Below, one piece after another: positions 26,440 through 38,106 of a stretch of 64,000 nucleotides of DNA (positions are counted from its first letter, which is position 1; the number at the start of each line of letters is the position of its first letter). The notes below the pieces were generated by a model. The model worked only from the letters and a program-made list of their open reading frames with translations. It searched no databases and was not told where the DNA came from. The stretch is from Acidobacteriota bacterium. Its GTDB lineage: Bacteria > Acidobacteriota > Terriglobia > Terriglobales > Acidobacteriaceae. Made by a program: the position numbers and the translations under genes. The DNA lies in contig JAJYVF010000008.1 of the NCBI GenBank assembly GCA_021792135.1, positions 1 through 64,000 on the forward strand, in the 5' to 3' direction.

Positions 26440-27930
26440 TTGGCGACAGCGGGTGTGAATCGCATGATGCTGTGGACGGATCTGGAAGGGCGGGAACTGA
26501 ACGGCGGCTGGCGGCTGATGCGGCTGGTGAATCCGGAGGGGCGCGCGGCGTGGTTTGAGGGCACGGGGCCGGAAGGCCGGGCAGCGATGCTGAGCCTGAC
26601 GGAGGCGCTGAACGACGAGGATACGCTGCTGGGGCGGATGCGCGCGGCCGCGGAGATCCGCCACCCCAATGTGGTGGCGGTATGGGAGTCGCAGCTGACG
26701 TGGGTGGACGATATCCCGGTGGTGGTGGCGGCCATGGAGCCGACCGAGGAGAACCTGGGAGACGTCCTGCGGGAGCGGCTGCTGAGCGCCGAGGAGGCGC
26801 GGGTGCTCATGGATGCGCTGCTTGCGGGGCTGGCGGCGATCCATCGGAAGAGCCTGGTGCACGGGCGCATGGAAGCCGGGAGCGTGCTGGCGACCGGCGA
26901 CACGATCAAGCTGCGCAGCGACTGTCTGCGGATTCCCGGAGCGGCATTTGCAGCGCAGGCGGCGGAGGATGTGCGGGGCCTGGCGCGCGTAGTCGTGCAT
27001 GCCATGACGCGGCGGATTCCGTCCGGGGAGAACGATCCGGTGCTGCAGCTGCTGCCGGAGCCGATGGCTCGCGCGGTGCGACGGGCGCTGAGCGGCAACG
27101 CCACCGTGGAGGAAGTCGCCAATCTGGCGGGCACGCGGCTGGCCGCGGTTCCCGACAGAAAGGCACCGGGACCGAAGCCGGCGGCTCCCAGGGCTGAGGC
27201 CATCCCTGCGCCCGTTCCGGCAGCTGCTCCCAAACCGGCCCAGCCGGCGGAGAAGCCAGCCGAGGCAGCGGCGAAGGTGGAGCCCGAGCAGCGGACAGAG
27301 ACAAAAGAGCCAAGTACGCTGGAGAAGCCGGGACCGCAGGATGCGGTTGTGGAAAAGCCGGAGTCGCGGGTGTTTCCGATGAAGGCGGCCGAAGCGAGCA
27401 TGGGGAAGAGAGCCGCAATTCCCGAGGTCTCACGGCTGCTGGGGGAGGACGACGAGCCGGACTGGGAGCGACGGCGCAGCGCCCCCTGGGTCATCGGAGG
27501 CGCGGTGGCGCTGTTCGTGGTGACGATTTTCGTCCTCTATGGAATCCTGCACCGCGGGAGCGGGGCAAAGCGGGGAACGGCGCAGCCTGCGGCAACGGCA
27601 TCGCATGGAGCGGCCGCAGCTCCGGAGAAGCCTTCGCCGATGGTGGCCCGGCCGGCGGCAGGGAACGGTTCAGCCCCCGCGGTGAGTTCGGCGCCGGGAT
27701 GGCATGTGGTGGTGTACACCTACAACCGCCAGGCACAGGCGGAGCAGAAAGCGCAGATGCTGGCACGCAGGTATCCCGGGCTGCAGCCGGGCGTCTTTGC
27801 GCCACATGGACATGCTCCCTGGCTGGTGACGCTGGGCGGCACCATGGATCGCACCCAGGCGATCAACCTGCGGGCGAAGGCGCTCCGCATGGGTCTGCCC
27901 AGGGACACCTACGCGCGGAACTATCGCTGA
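26440..27930 (+). CDS. Pseudokinase - transmembrane - SPOR-domain protein
   Basis: A 496-residue protein with three parts. Residues about 15-235 resemble the protein-kinase fold (EIRHPNVVAVWE, LLAGLAAIHRKSLVHGRM), but the catalytic HRD reads HGR and no DFG or VAIK Lys is found, so it should be catalytically dead. Residues about 240-345 are a Pro/Ala/Lys-rich linker. One membrane segment (WVIGGAVALFVVTIFVLYGIL, about 350-370). After it, a 50-residue linker and a SPOR-like C-terminal domain (WHVVVYTYNRQAQAEQKAQM ... LVTLGGTMDRTQAINL). SPOR domains bind denuded peptidoglycan at division sites. TTG start at 26440 with GGGAGG six bases upstream. It lies 200 bases before the flagellar run, same strand, but co-transcription is unproven. 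Confidence 0.83.
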   Translation: MATAGVNRMMLWTDLEGRELNGGWRLMRLVNPEGRAAWFEGTGPEGRAAMLSLTEALNDEDTLLGRMRAAAEIRHPNVVAVWESQLTWVDDIPVVVAAMEPTEENLGDVLRERLLSAEEARVLMDALLAGLAAIHRKSLVHGRMEAGSVLATGDTIKLRSDCLRIPGAAFAAQAAEDVRGLARVVVHAMTRRIPSGENDPVLQLLPEPMARAVRRALSGNATVEEVANLAGTRLAAVPDRKAPGPKPAAPRAEAIPAPVPAAAPKPAQPAEKPAEAAAKVEPEQRTETKEPSTLEKPGPQDAVVEKPESRVFPMKAAEASMGKRAAIPEVSRLLGEDDEPDWERRRSAPWVIGGAVALFVVTIFVLYGILHRGSGAKRGTAQPAATASHGAAAAPEKPSPMVARPAAGNGSAPAVSSAPGWHVVVYTYNRQAQAEQKAQMLARRYPGLQPGVFAPHGHAPWLVTLGGTMDRTQAINLRAKALRMGLPRDTYARNYR

Positions 27931-28130: not shown

Positions 28131-28484
28131 ATGCCTGAGGCGGAAAACAAGCTGACAACGGGACTTCCTGTGGCCGACACCGCGCTGGTGCCGCAGCCCC
28201 TCCTGGCTCGCGGCGCCGCAGCCGATGCGGAGAAAGGCGCTGCGGCTCCGGATCAGGAACGGGACACGCGCCTGGACCGGCTGCGTATGCAGCTGGACGT
28301 GATGGTTCCGGTGGGCTCCTTTCGCGTGGGCGATCTGCTGGCGCTTTCCACGGGTGGAGTGGTGGAGACGGTTCACGACCACGGCCAGGATCTGCCGGTG
28401 CTCTGTGGCGGTGTGCTGCTGCTGTGGGGGGAGTTCGAGGTTGTGGAGCAGAAGCTCGCTGTGCGCATCACGCGGGTGGCCTAG
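28131..28484 (+). CDS. fliN: FliN/FliM-family flagellar motor switch protein (first copy)
   Basis: A 117-residue protein. Residues 1-45 are a variable Ala-rich stretch; residues about 50-117 form one SpoA (FliN C-terminal) domain: LDVMVPVGSFRVGDLLALS, followed by VETVHDHGQDLPVLCGGVLLLWGE and LAVRITRVA. FliN binds FliM in the C-ring and FliH during export. This first copy starts the export gene run (fliO begins 2 bases after its stop), while a second SpoA protein lies with fliM at 35532. The usual Gly-rich 'VILYANGRLVARGEVV' region is here CGGVLLLWGE, somewhat divergent. Confidence 0.87.
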   Translation: MPEAENKLTTGLPVADTALVPQPLLARGAAADAEKGAAAPDQERDTRLDRLRMQLDVMVPVGSFRVGDLLALSTGGVVETVHDHGQDLPVLCGGVLLLWGEFEVVEQKLAVRITRVA

Positions 28485-34554: not shown

Positions 34555-35535
34555 ATGGAAAAGGAACTGGGTCAGGAGGAGATCGATGCGCTCTTTGCCG
34601 CGGCCAGAAAGCGCAGGCAGGCGGTTCCGGGAGAGAGCCGCAGCCGTGTTCTTCCCTGGAGCTTCGCGCGCTCCGGCCAGATCAGCAACGAGCAGCTGCG
34701 GGCCATCAGCATGCTCAACGATATCTTCGCCCGCAATCTGACCCACCATCTGGCCGCGTGGTTCCGCAGCCGCGTGCAGGTGAGCCTGGTTTCGGCCGAG
34801 CAGATTCCGTTCAGCGAGTATCTGCTGCGTATTCCGGAGCTGGCCTGGGTTGGCTCGGTGCGCCTGGAGCCGCTGCGCGCGGTGGCGGTGCTCGAGATGG
34901 ATCTGACTACGGCGCCTGCCATGATCGAGCTGCTGCTGGGCGGGGAAGGCAGGGCGGGCGAGCCACGCGAGCTGACCGACATCGAGGAGTCGATTCTGTC
35001 GGGGGTGGTGGAGGCGGTTTGCCGCGAGCTGACCACCGCGTGGCAGCCGGTGGGGCTGATTTTCAGCTTCGAAAAGCGGCAGTTGCAGACGCAGATTCCG
35101 CAGCTGATTCCCGTCTCGGAGAAGACCCTCTGCCTGAGCTTTGAACTGCGGCTCGCCGAGGTCAGCGGGCTGCTGAACCTCGCGTTTCCCGCGGTGGTTT
35201 CGAATACCATCCTGCGCCGCCTGGCTGGCGAGCGGACACGGCAGAGGCGCCACACCGAGGAGATCCGGCAGCGGCTGGGCGAACTGGTGCGCCGCTGCCG
35301 CACCCGGCTCGCGCTTGACCTGCCGCCGGTGCGCGTTCCGGCGGAGACGCTGGGCGGCCTGCATCCGGGCAGCATTCTGCGCCTGAACCTGCCGGCGCGC
35401 AGCGCAGCCTGGTTCCATGCCGGAGGGCTGGTGCTGTTTGAAGGGGCCCCGGTGGGCCAGGCAGATCGTCGGGCGGCTCACCTGCTGGTTCGCAGCGAGG
35501 CCGGCGGGCCCACGGGGGCCAAGGCAAAGGCATGA
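34555..35535 (+). CDS. fliM: Flagellar motor switch protein FliM
   Basis: A 326-residue C-ring protein. The N-terminal CheY-binding motif EEIDALFAAA is at the start, then a middle CheC-like domain (ARNLTHHLAAWFRSRVQVSL, IIELLLGG-like MIELLLGGEGR, LTDIEESIL), and a C-terminal SpoA domain (LVRRCRTRLALDLPPVRVPA, PGSILRLNLPARSAAWFHAG). The intact EIDALF motif predicts binding of CheY-P. It overlaps the second fliN-like gene by 4 bases. Confidence 0.95.
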   Translation: MEKELGQEEIDALFAAARKRRQAVPGESRSRVLPWSFARSGQISNEQLRAISMLNDIFARNLTHHLAAWFRSRVQVSLVSAEQIPFSEYLLRIPELAWVGSVRLEPLRAVAVLEMDLTTAPAMIELLLGGEGRAGEPRELTDIEESILSGVVEAVCRELTTAWQPVGLIFSFEKRQLQTQIPQLIPVSEKTLCLSFELRLAEVSGLLNLAFPAVVSNTILRRLAGERTRQRRHTEEIRQRLGELVRRCRTRLALDLPPVRVPAETLGGLHPGSILRLNLPARSAAWFHAGGLVLFEGAPVGQADRRAAHLLVRSEAGGPTGAKAKA

Positions 35536-36203
35536 ACGAGACGGCACGCTGGGTGGGCAGGCTGGAGGTGGAAATCGGCCGCGAGCTGGGGCAGGCGGTG
35601 GGTGTGTCTCCCGGCGGGGAACTGCCCGGGGAGGAGCGGAGTCTCGTCGATGCGCTCGAGCTTCCGGGGGCACGTCTTGCTCTGGCCGTCGACCGCGAGC
35701 AGCTGGCGGCTGTTCTGGTGGAAGGGCGGCTGATCGAGACGGCGCAGGGCGATGCCGAGACCGTGCGCGAGCTGTGGGCGGGGATCCTCTCGAGCGTGTG
35801 CGCGCGGCTGGGAGGACGGCTGGCGGATGACGGGGACTGGTCGGAGAACATGCAGCCCTGTTCTCTGCGCATGGGTACGGCGTCGATGCGGATGGGCGTG
35901 GCCGTGGACTCCGCAGCGCTGAGCGAGGAGCCTGGCCTGCCGGGCGGGAATTACGATCTGCTGCTCGACGTGGAGCTGGACACCTCGGTGCGCTTCGGAT
36001 CGCGGGAGATGGAGCTGGGCGAGCTGCTCGATCTGGGGCCGGGGGACGTGGTGGAGCTGGACCGGCAGGTCTCGGATCCGGTGGATCTGATCGTCGGGGA
36101 CAAGATCATCGCCCGGGGCGAGGTGGTGCTGGTGGACGGCAATTTCGGGCTGCGGGTGACCGAGGTGGCGGAGCCGATGCGGCGGCTGGAGAGCATTCGA
36201 TGA
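35532..36203 (+). CDS. FliN-like motor switch protein with N-terminal extension (second SpoA protein)
   Basis: A 223-residue protein. Residues about 1-145 are a mixed segment resembling a degenerate CheC/FliM middle domain (DALELPGARLALAVDREQLA, ETVRELWAGILSSVC). Residues about 146-223 form a SpoA domain (LLDVELDTSVRFGSREMELG, LLDLGPGDVVELDRQVSDPV, GDKIIARGEVVLVDGNFGLR), closer to classical FliN than the first copy at 28131. This larger protein probably is the true C-ring FliN, or acts with it. It overlaps fliM by 4 bases and the zinc/MshEN protein by 4 bases, so all three are coupled. Confidence 0.85.
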   Translation: MNETARWVGRLEVEIGRELGQAVGVSPGGELPGEERSLVDALELPGARLALAVDREQLAAVLVEGRLIETAQGDAETVRELWAGILSSVCARLGGRLADDGDWSENMQPCSLRMGTASMRMGVAVDSAALSEEPGLPGGNYDLLLDVELDTSVRFGSREMELGELLDLGPGDVVELDRQVSDPVDLIVGDKIIARGEVVLVDGNFGLRVTEVAEPMRRLESIR

Positions 36204-37114
36204 ACGCTTCCGTGCGGCCGGCGGCCGGCCCGGATCAGGAGAAGGCGCTGCATGCGGGCCGCCGTGTCATTTCGACCTGCGCGAATCCCCGCTGCGCGAC
36301 CGGATGGATCCGACTGTGGCGGAGCCGTCGCGTTCCGGCCTTCGAGGGGCGCTGGGCCTGTTCGGCCGGGTGCATGGAACAGGTGGTGGCGGCGGCGGTG
36401 CGCCGCGAACTGGAGGGCCGCGATGCCGGCGCGCATCTTCATCGCGTGCCTCTGGGGCTGCTGCTGGTCGAACAGGGGCGGATCTCCCCGGAACAGCTGC
36501 GGCAGGCACTGGCCGAGCAGCGGGATGCCGCCAGGAGGCAGGACGGCGCGGCTCTGCCGCTGGGGCAGTGGCTGGTGCGCAGCGGGGTGCTGAGTGAGAC
36601 GGCGCTGACCCGCGCGCTGGGCGCGCAGTGGAGCGCTCCCGTCTTTGCCCTCGGTGACAGCCGGCCGGAAGAGCTGGCCTCGGCGCTGCCGGCATTCTTT
36701 TCCGAGACGCTGGGCGCGCTGCCGGTGCGGCTCGCCGGCGACAGCATGCTGTATGTGGCGTGGCCGGGACGGATTGACCGCACCCTGGCCTATGCACTCG
36801 AGGGGATCTGCGGGCTGCGGGTCAGCTCGGGCATCGCGCGCGATTCCGAGTTGCGGGTGGCGCAGACGCGGTATCTGGCCGCGAAGGCCCCACGCACACG
36901 GCTGCTGGAGGCAGCGAGTGCGAGCGTGCTGGCGCGGGCTCTGGCGCGGCTCATCGAAACCGAAAAGCCGGCCGAGGCGCGGCTGCGGCGCATTCACCGC
37001 TGGTGGTGGCTGCGCCTCTGGCGCCGCCTGCCGGCCCCCTCCGGACTGCCCCTGCCGGGCGAGGTGGAAGATGTGCTCTGCACCGAGGGCCACGAATTCC
37101 GCCGGCCGGATTAG
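36200..37114 (+). CDS. Zinc-cluster/MshEN-domain protein in the motor switch operon
   Basis: A 304-residue protein. Residues 27-58 hold four Cys (27, 32, 54, 58) likely to bind zinc (CANPRC and CSAGC). Residues about 82-230 match the N-terminal domain of GspE/PilB/MshE ATPases (MshEN) without any ATPase: two copies of the LG-x2-L-V-x2-G-x5-L-x3-L-x2-Q pattern lie at about 85-107 (LGLLLVEQGRISPEQLRQAL) and 121-143 (LGQWLVRSGVLSETALTRAL). In c-di-GMP-binding MshEN the residue before each LG is Arg; here it is Pro, so binding is doubtful. The gene overlaps the upstream fliN-like gene by 4 bases; a sigma-28 promoter for cheY begins at its stop. I do not know it as a standard flagellar protein. 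Confidence 0.78.
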   Translation: MNASVRPAAGPDQEKALHAGRRVISTCANPRCATGWIRLWRSRRVPAFEGRWACSAGCMEQVVAAAVRRELEGRDAGAHLHRVPLGLLLVEQGRISPEQLRQALAEQRDAARRQDGAALPLGQWLVRSGVLSETALTRALGAQWSAPVFALGDSRPEELASALPAFFSETLGALPVRLAGDSMLYVAWPGRIDRTLAYALEGICGLRVSSGIARDSELRVAQTRYLAAKAPRTRLLEAASASVLARALARLIETEKPAEARLRRIHRWWWLRLWRRLPAPSGLPLPGEVEDVLCTEGHEFRRPD

Positions 37115-37161: not shown

Positions 37162-37545
37162 ATGTCCGGAATCAGGGTACTGATCGTCGATGACTCGTCG
37201 GTGATGCGCAAGATTGTCGAGCGGGCTCTGCGCCAGGCGGGGCTGAATCTGGTCAAAGTGCTGGAGGCGGGCAGCGGCTGCGAAGGACTGGCGGCGCTGG
37301 GCCGGGAGTGCGTCGACCTGATCGTTTCCGATATCAATATGCCGGCCATGGACGGCCTCGAATTGCTGCGCCAGATTCAGGCGCAGTCGCTGGCGCCCGG
37401 CGTGCCCGTGGTCATGATCACCACCGAAAGCGGAGAGGAGCACGTGCGCGAGGCGCTGGCGGCCGGCGCTCAGGGGTATATCCGCAAGCCGTTTACCCCG
37501 GATCAGGTGCGGGACCGCGTGCTGCCCCTGCTGGTTCCGGCGTAG
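37162..37545 (+). CDS. cheY: Stand-alone CheY-type response regulator
   Basis: A 127-residue single-domain receiver: acidic pair in VLIVDDSSVMRKIV, phospho-acceptor Asp in LIVSDINMPAMDGLELL, Thr in VVMITTESGEEHV and Lys in YIRKPFTPDQ. No output domain. ATG preceded by ATGGAGGCGCG. A sigma-28 promoter stands 23 bases upstream, so it is expected to be a late flagellar gene. CheY-P should bind the EIDALF motif of the nearby FliM, and cheX follows by 75 bases. Confidence 0.95.
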   Translation: MSGIRVLIVDDSSVMRKIVERALRQAGLNLVKVLEAGSGCEGLAALGRECVDLIVSDINMPAMDGLELLRQIQAQSLAPGVPVVMITTESGEEHVREALAAGAQGYIRKPFTPDQVRDRVLPLLVPA

Positions 37546-37620: not shown

Positions 37621-38106
37621 ATGACGGCAGTTGCAGCAACGCCCGCGCGGATGGCGCGGCTCGAGGAGAATCTGGACCGGGCGGCGGATGAAGTCTTCAG
37701 CACCATGATGGGTGTCCGCTGCCTGCCGGTGCCGGATTCGGCAGACGCCGAGCGCGAGGTGCTCTCCGCGGTCATTGGACTGGCCGGCGCCATGAGCGGA
37801 TCCATGGTGCTGCACAGCGGAAGCCGTGCTGCGATGCGGATTGCGGAGCGGCTGACGGGCATCGAGCCCGGGGAAGTGGATGCCGTGGTGCGCGATGCGA
37901 TGGGCGAAGTCTGCAACATGGTGGCCGGAGCCTGGAAAGGTTTCGACGGGACGCTGGCCTGCGGGTGTCTGCTCTCAACGCCAACCGTGGTCTCCGGCAG
38001 CAGCTACGAGCTGTTCACGCAGCGCGCGCCGATCCGCATAGAACGCACCTACCGCTTCGAGGAGCGGACCATCACCTTCAGCATCTGCTGCGAGTTCTCT
38101 TCCTGA
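37621..38106 (+). CDS. cheX: CheX-type CheY-P phosphatase
   Basis: A 161-residue protein of the CheC/CheX/FliY phosphatase family. The family's E-x2-N active site is in DAMGEVCNMVAGAWKG. It resembles CheX: one copy of the motif, a leading long helix (MARLEENLDRAADEVFSTMM) and ending in YRFEERTITFSICCEF. Predicted to remove phosphate from CheY. ATG at 37621 preceded by GGAGGAGAG. It is downstream of cheY, likely in the same transcript; a repeated candidate operon-head motif overlaps its stop and precedes flgF. Confidence 0.86.
   Translation: MTAVAATPARMARLEENLDRAADEVFSTMMGVRCLPVPDSADAEREVLSAVIGLAGAMSGSMVLHSGSRAAMRIAERLTGIEPGEVDAVVRDAMGEVCNMVAGAWKGFDGTLACGCLLSTPTVVSGSSYELFTQRAPIRIERTYRFEERTITFSICCEFSS

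Follow-up and report, generated by a model that had tools for sequence, protein, structure and literature searches.

The window, which is the whole stretch of 64,000 nucleotides that was analysed, comes from an Acidobacteriaceae genome of 5.1 Mb in 77 contigs and contains a flagellar gene cluster in the order fliN1, fliP, fliR, flhB, flhA, fliA, fliM, fliN2, the gene under study (hereafter the MshEN-type gene), cheY and cheX, followed by flgF, flgG, flgA, flgH, flgI, flgK and flgL (Table 1). Here flgF and flgG were named from reading and gene order, and flgL from its Flagellin_N match together with its place. The MshEN-type gene is taken from the ORF list and its translation, and its ATG overlaps the TGA of fliN2 by 4 bp. 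Across the whole genome there are three FliMN_C matches, namely fliN1, fliN2 and the C-terminus of fliM, and fliN2 is the second of two fliN genes. Moreover, the genome carries 14 GGDEF and 6 PilZ matches, so that c-di-GMP signalling is likely in this organism. As a side observation, a 496-aa ORF before fliN1 (26440-27930 of the window) reads by eye as having a domain like that of protein kinases, a membrane segment and perhaps an end of the SPOR type.

Table 1. Coordinates of the flagellar genes around the MshEN-type gene and of the features within it
Feature	Position in window	Strand	Basis
fliN1, first fliN, 117 aa, before fliP	28131..28484	+	PF01052 44.2 bits, whole-genome search
fliM	34555..35535	+	PF02154 122.7 bits
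fliN2, second fliN, 223 aa	35532..36203	+	PF01052 82.9 bits; TIGR02480 85.6 bits, cut-off 84.05
GGAGAG, ribosome-binding-like site	36188..36193	+	read inside the end of fliN2, 5' of the ATG of the MshEN-type gene
MshEN-type gene, ATG start, 304 aa	36200..37114	+	four-Cys cluster, MshEN domain, C-terminal domain; NF053729 45.9 bits
four-Cys cluster, residues 27-58, C-x4-C-x21-C-x3-C	36278..36373	+	Cys conservation in relatives
MshEN motif I, residues 84-107, PLG start	36449..36520	+	NF053729 match 36449-36628; contacts 2, 3, 17, 21, 24 kept
MshEN motif II, residues 120-143, PLG start	36557..36628	+	alignment, contact positions kept
MshEN C-terminal subdomain, about residues 155-228	36662..36883	+	fold match 9gl5_A, model residues 82-228
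C-terminal beta-alpha-beta-beta-beta domain, about residues 229-298	36884..37093	+	AlphaFold2 model of the domain alone
cheY-like response regulator	37162..37545	+	PF00072 104.2 bits; top NCBIfam match CheY, under cut-off
cheX-like phosphatase	37621..38106	+	PF13690 59.5 bits

Domains of the protein

The protein scores above the cut-off of 38 bits with the NCBIfam model NF053729 (c-di-GMP_motif, MshE-related), which also matches 27 of 28 family members at E <= 0.001, and the gene is the sole NF053729 match of the genome at this threshold. A phmmer search of the protein against the PDB recovered PilF, PilB and MshE, and an AlphaFold2 model built on 28 sequences (pLDDT 88.5, pTM 0.84) has the MshEN fold, with its closest matches tied between 9gl5_A, the GSPII-B domain of PilF with c-di-GMP (Z 12.0, rmsd 2.5, 134 residues aligned), and 5htl_B, MshE with c-di-GMP (Z 11.7, rmsd 2.5, 135 aligned). 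The NF053729 score, the PDB matches and the fold match at Z about 12 together place the MshEN likeness above chance. With the Pfam model PF05157 the window protein has no match at E <= 1 and the gathering score is not reached, though at E <= 0.1 this model finds 18 of the 28 family members. PF05157 has a single match in the genome (G000:C64:159323-159583), found elsewhere, in a pilus-type ATPase of 559 aa whose frame contains a Walker A motif; as NF053729 does not match there, the c-di-GMP motif with its two repeats may be lost in this ATPase.

The whole MshEN domain covers residues 82-228, and no N2D or ATPase domain follows it, as the ORF stops at 304 aa and the match of the PilB profile spans the MshEN part alone. 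A truncated pilus ATPase was considered and rejected by sequence, where the comparison of profiles gave the C-terminal domain a probability of 0.2% of corresponding to the N2D of PilB. Searched with Pfam at E <= 1, the protein has neither a PilZ nor a receiver (Response_reg) match; Pfam likewise gives no FliMN_C (SpoA) match, the three of the genome lying in other ORFs, and no DNA-binding family is among its Pfam or NCBIfam matches. DUF4388 scores 23.3 bits, under the curated cut-off of 25, and matches 8 of the 28 members at E <= 0.1.

In front of the MshEN domain are four Cys, read from the sequence at residues 27, 32, 54 and 58, and alignments show that they are retained in nearly all relatives, including those of other families of the phylum. 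This cluster is probably a zinc site, the metal being suggested by the Cys pattern. Both LG-x2-LV-x2-G repeats are present within 24-residue motifs led by Pro84 and Pro120, and the spacer between them has 12 residues in the window, 5-7 in most relatives and 11 in eight rows. The preliminary description of this DNA had named an ORF overlapping the second fliN, a four-Cys cluster in front, an MshEN domain without an ATPase, both repeats kept, and Pro for the leading Arg in each of them, and every one of these points was borne out, as was the MshEN identity of the domain when it was modelled.

A third domain, absent from that description, occupies the C-terminal end. Modelled alone, it reaches a pLDDT of 92.7 in AlphaFold2, and its W270 and R272 are invariant in both the 28-row and the 33-row alignments; in the former, C54, C58 and W144 are invariant as well. 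Foldseek gave no structural relative for it at E <= 0.001 and none with confidence. The best VIA match is 2p25 of the glyoxalase family (Z 6.3, rmsd 2.5, 56 aligned), a resemblance that may reflect in the model a mere common arrangement.

Distribution and gene neighbourhood

Herein 60 genomes of the family to which the window belongs were searched with the window protein, and 38 of them match it at E <= 0.001. In 27 of the 60 the best match extends over most of the protein, at E <= 2.6e-12, and these were counted as relatives; in the other 11 of the 38 it has 4.3e-6 or worse and in 10 of these 11 lies in frames of 572-634 aa, which by size alone correspond to pilus-type ATPases. FliM is found in 28 of the 60 genomes, and a relative is present in 27 of the 28 FliM-positive and in none of the 32 FliM-negative ones (Fisher p 3e-16, phylogeny ignored). 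With the family members of a phylum sample added, in most genomes of which 7 candidates per genome were scored, relatives are found in 43 of 46 FliM-positive against 0 of 36 FliM-negative genomes. The three FliM-positive family genomes where the gene was not found are G058, which is 83% complete and has a contig end beside fliM (L062), and G184 and G301, both confirmed with all candidates scored; in G184, flgF follows fliN after about 130 bases. In G301 a 228-aa ORF (L119:7786-8472), HDOD-like by eye, stands after fliN where the MshEN gene would be expected, and at L093 (1616-2497) another HDOD-like ORF separates fliN from the MshEN gene.

A search for orthologues next to fliM/fliN, suggested in the preliminary description, found them beside fliN across many Acidobacteriota. 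In family loci of up to 20 kb, compared by tblastn with the window's own copy excluded, the gene lies directly 3' of fliN in 26 of 28; of the two exceptions, L047 has no fliN match, and L057 has fliN matched with the gene placed there by the family search only. In four genomes (G010, G021, G040 and G047) the gene is directly behind fliN though fliM is elsewhere in the genome, and tblastn found no cheY or cheX match beside it. Two genomes with two fliM genes each, G028 and G045, have two relatives, one adjoining each fliM. At L050 (G028) and L055 (G051) sets of fliM, fliN and the MshEN gene stand without other window flagellar genes in 18-20 kb, a weak CheY match at L055 being the sole exception, as if these three genes formed a unit. 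The phylum sample adds 22 family loci, five of which repeat earlier genomes or the window itself; 21 of the 22 have fliN directly before the gene, and L077 shows fliM only.

Named records were scanned as well. With the single protein the scan of their contigs gave no relatives, and with a 10-row alignment as the query, which reaches close relatives only, it gave 72 loci, partly redundant since, for example, L150 and L217 belong to one genome and L175 and L211 to another, and several may repeat genomes already counted, such as L149 and G033. In 70 of the 72, fliN is directly before the gene, one of the others starting at a contig edge and one being a non-member. By title all are from Acidobacteriota (71/72), mostly Acidobacteriaceae or Acidobacteria, except L218 from Nitrospirota, which was rejected as a member because by reading it is a GspE-type ATPase. 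Named strains that are not metagenome-assembled and have the gene include Paracidobacterium acidisoli, Terracidiphilus gabretensis and Acidipila rosea.

The overlap with fliN is common in these relatives. Counting an in-frame predicted start within fliN behind a four-base purine core (GGAG, GAGG or AGGA), 82 of 110 relatives examined have such a start, of which 76 with a 13-bp overlap; they comprise 19 of 27 family loci and 63 of 69 named loci. The 14 other-family loci have no such start, further genes or gaps separating fliN from the gene. The next gene in most close relatives is cheY or flgF.

In the wider phylum, 297 genomes were sampled and FliM is above the cut-off in 71. A flagellum-linked relative is present in at least 38 of these 71, 22 from this family and 16 from other families; 14 of the 16 other-family loci have fliN before the gene, and the remaining two, L095 and L104, begin at or near it. 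The other 33 of the 71 have no flagellum-linked copy among the candidates scored; a recheck of 21 of the 33 scored every candidate, or 88 of 92 in the case of G342. For example, in family f23 none of 17 FliM-positive genomes has a copy among the candidates scored, five of them rechecked in full. As FliM-positive genomes lacking a copy exist, such flagella can do without the gene. Moreover, a four-Cys/MshEN protein with the domain order of the window protein, and with R and K leading its motifs, is encoded in G300 at L109:9745-10569; by reading, its gene sits between secDF-like and tatD-like genes, with no match to a window flagellar gene in 20 kb, so that not every protein of this layout belongs to a flagellar cluster.

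Predicted ligand site and possible role at the switch

According to PMC5013675, each motif of MshE contacts c-di-GMP through Arg (stacking) at position 1, Leu at 2, Gly at 3, Leu at 17, Leu at 21 and Gln at 24. Both motifs of the window keep all of these apart from position 1, and the contacts are likewise kept in both motifs in 19 of 28 family loci, 67 of 69 named loci and 13 of 15 other-family loci. In the nine family loci that lost a contact in one motif, the loss is in motif I for seven, and the Gln of motif I is replaced in seven rows of the family alignment; the Gln of motif II is kept in 28/28, 21/21, 70/70 and 16/16 rows, sets that partly overlap.

As for position 1, motif I has Pro in 27 of 28 family loci (the exception, L047, has unread bases), in all 21 rows of another set, which contains the window and some genomes a second time, and in all 69 named loci covered, and in other families it has K in 6, R in 6, L in 2 and T in 1 of 15. 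Motif II starts with R or K in almost every relative, Pro being found there only in the window and L107; the relative at L102, for example, has the canonical Arg in both motifs. Read from the alignments, the double Pro is thus real, with motif I a lineage trait and motif II a near-private change. The preliminary description took it as a possible sign of altered ligand binding, which follows only weakly, for the Pro of motif I is lineage-wide and an MshEN domain without the Arg binds tightly: GSPII-B of PilF has Lys and Leu in place of Arg and binds c-di-GMP at 6 nM, as given in PMC11731258. In the same paper, P335 starts one motif of GSPII-C, whose affinity near 0.5 uM is about that of MshE, although this is a weaker precedent for Pro because GSPII-C has three motif copies (PMC11731258). 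A relaxed search motif used in PMC5013675 admits [RKPN] at position 1. By analogy with GSPII-B, and given this relaxed motif, Arg loss does not equal binding loss, and neither Pro excludes c-di-GMP binding. When the relaxed 24-residue motif is applied, motif II of the window fits it and motif I does not, the misfit being, by reading, at the core position Arg94. There is no full match to it in 16 of 28 family loci, 7 of 16 other-family loci and 14 of 70 named loci, and only 2 of the 70 named loci match it twice.

A receptor-like domain whose gene overlaps fliN2 and stands before cheY and cheX in the window is best understood as feeding c-di-GMP signals into the switch complex. We consider the chances about even that the protein is a flagellum-dedicated MshEN receptor of c-di-GMP which works on the switch complex from its FliN side and alters the motor. 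The analysis establishes the gene, the order of its domains, its linkage to fliN and to flagellated genomes, the predicted fold and the retained contact residues, and from these we infer that the protein binds the ligand, carries zinc, docks on FliN and affects rotation. In favour of the receptor we count the co-occurrence with FliM, the second copy in the genomes with two fliM genes, the constant place behind fliN, the starts within fliN, the predicted fold, the retained contacts, the R or K at motif I in 12 of 15 other-family loci, the GGDEF genes and the sole NF053729 match of the genome; against it stand the contacts lost at nine family loci, the incomplete fit to the relaxed motif, the 12-residue spacer of the window and the FliM-positive genomes lacking the gene. 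In such a mechanism the overlapping genes would give synthesis in step with the second FliN, probably by translational coupling, and the protein would bind the switch complex from the FliN side, the Cys cluster and/or the C-terminal domain probably making the contact. Upon a rise in c-di-GMP the MshEN domain would bind the ligand and change shape, and the bound protein would alter the motor by slowing, by a direction bias, or by interference with CheY-P at the switch. The broader proposal, that the switch of many Acidobacteriota has a built-in c-di-GMP sensor, a zinc/MshEN subunit made with the second FliN and carried on the C-ring, the signal then being read by the rotor and not by a separate brake protein, is offered tentatively, and we think it rather doubtful. 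A c-di-GMP receptor at this place would be a new route tying c-di-GMP to the flagellar motor in many swimming Acidobacteriota. In this large phylum of soil bacteria it would be a third link, built on MshEN, with another receptor fold recruited to the rotor, and the switch between swimming and settling in such bacteria would become directly testable.

The preliminary description had left the choice between a c-di-GMP sensor and a structural switch part, and the sequence does not settle it, though we lean to the sensor. As a structural or assembly part of the switch or C-ring, the protein would use the MshEN fold as a ligand-free module for protein binding, which agrees with the Pro at motif I family-wide and at both motifs in the window, with the contact lost in one motif at 9 of 28 family loci, and with five invariant residues (C54, C58, W144, W270 and R272) that lie outside the named ligand contacts; there is even a precedent in the N-domain of Xanthomonas XpsE, an MshEN fold in which, according to PMC5013675, binding was lost. 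However, the retention of contacts in both motifs of the window and nearly all named loci, the R or K at motif I in most other-family relatives (12/15) and the Gln of motif II in every set of rows speak against a module that has given up its ligand, and we hold such a part to be unlikely.

FliN is a docking site of the flagellar export apparatus, and fliP, fliR, flhB and flhA are in the same cluster, so that the protein might instead control flagellar export or assembly in response to c-di-GMP, acting where FliN meets the export ATPase complex and not on rotation. Such a role would suit a domain best known, from PMC5013675, in proteins where it precedes secretion and pilus ATPases, on which it acts elsewhere, but the gene that follows in most close relatives is not an export gene, and this reading seems to us quite improbable. 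Least of all do we expect a zinc-finger regulator of transcription or translation responding to c-di-GMP from within the flagellar operon: the four-Cys cluster preceding a ligand domain would fit it, whereas the matches of the protein include no DNA-binding family and its fixed site behind fliN suggests a protein partner, which makes such a regulator very improbable indeed.

Comparison with known systems

The MshEN domain is already known, and so is its occurrence outside ATPases. The view of the preliminary description that it normally precedes a type II/IV ATPase is right in that it is best known there, but the domain is not confined to that place: PMC5013675 lists MshEN in PA3740, FrgA and the response regulator Bd2402, and the name of an NCBIfam model also places it in the glycosyltransferase NfrB. 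As to a family linked to the flagellar switch, our search of the literature, by titles and abstracts of mostly openly accessible papers, found no prior description.

With the receptor domains of MshE and PilF GSPII the window protein has in common the fold, as predicted, at Z about 12, the two 24-residue motifs with their contacts, and NF053729; it differs from them in having no ATPase, four Cys ahead and an extra domain behind, Pro for Arg twice, and a place in a flagellar operon. NfrB, a glycosyltransferase activated by c-di-GMP, has in its C-terminal part an MshEN domain outside an ATPase, as in the window protein, and its model matches residues 82-230 far under the cut-off and 28 of the 28 members at E <= 0.001. 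In contrast to NfrB, the window protein has no glycosyltransferase and lies in a flagellar context.

The closest functional analogues known to us are the Cle proteins of Caulobacter, c-di-GMP receptors acting at the flagellar switch according to PMC5677366. By this analogy c-di-GMP would be linked to the switch in both, as proposed here, but Cle proteins are CheY-like with a c-di-GMP-binding C-terminal extension, whereas the window protein has no receiver-domain match. YcgR and MotI are flagellar brakes of the PilZ type. Brake and clutch proteins of the flagellum are mentioned in the abstract of PMC8203827, and the role proposed for the window protein, coupling c-di-GMP to motor output, would be shared with YcgR and MotI. 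In contrast to them, the window protein, which has no PilZ match, is encoded by a gene tied to fliN.
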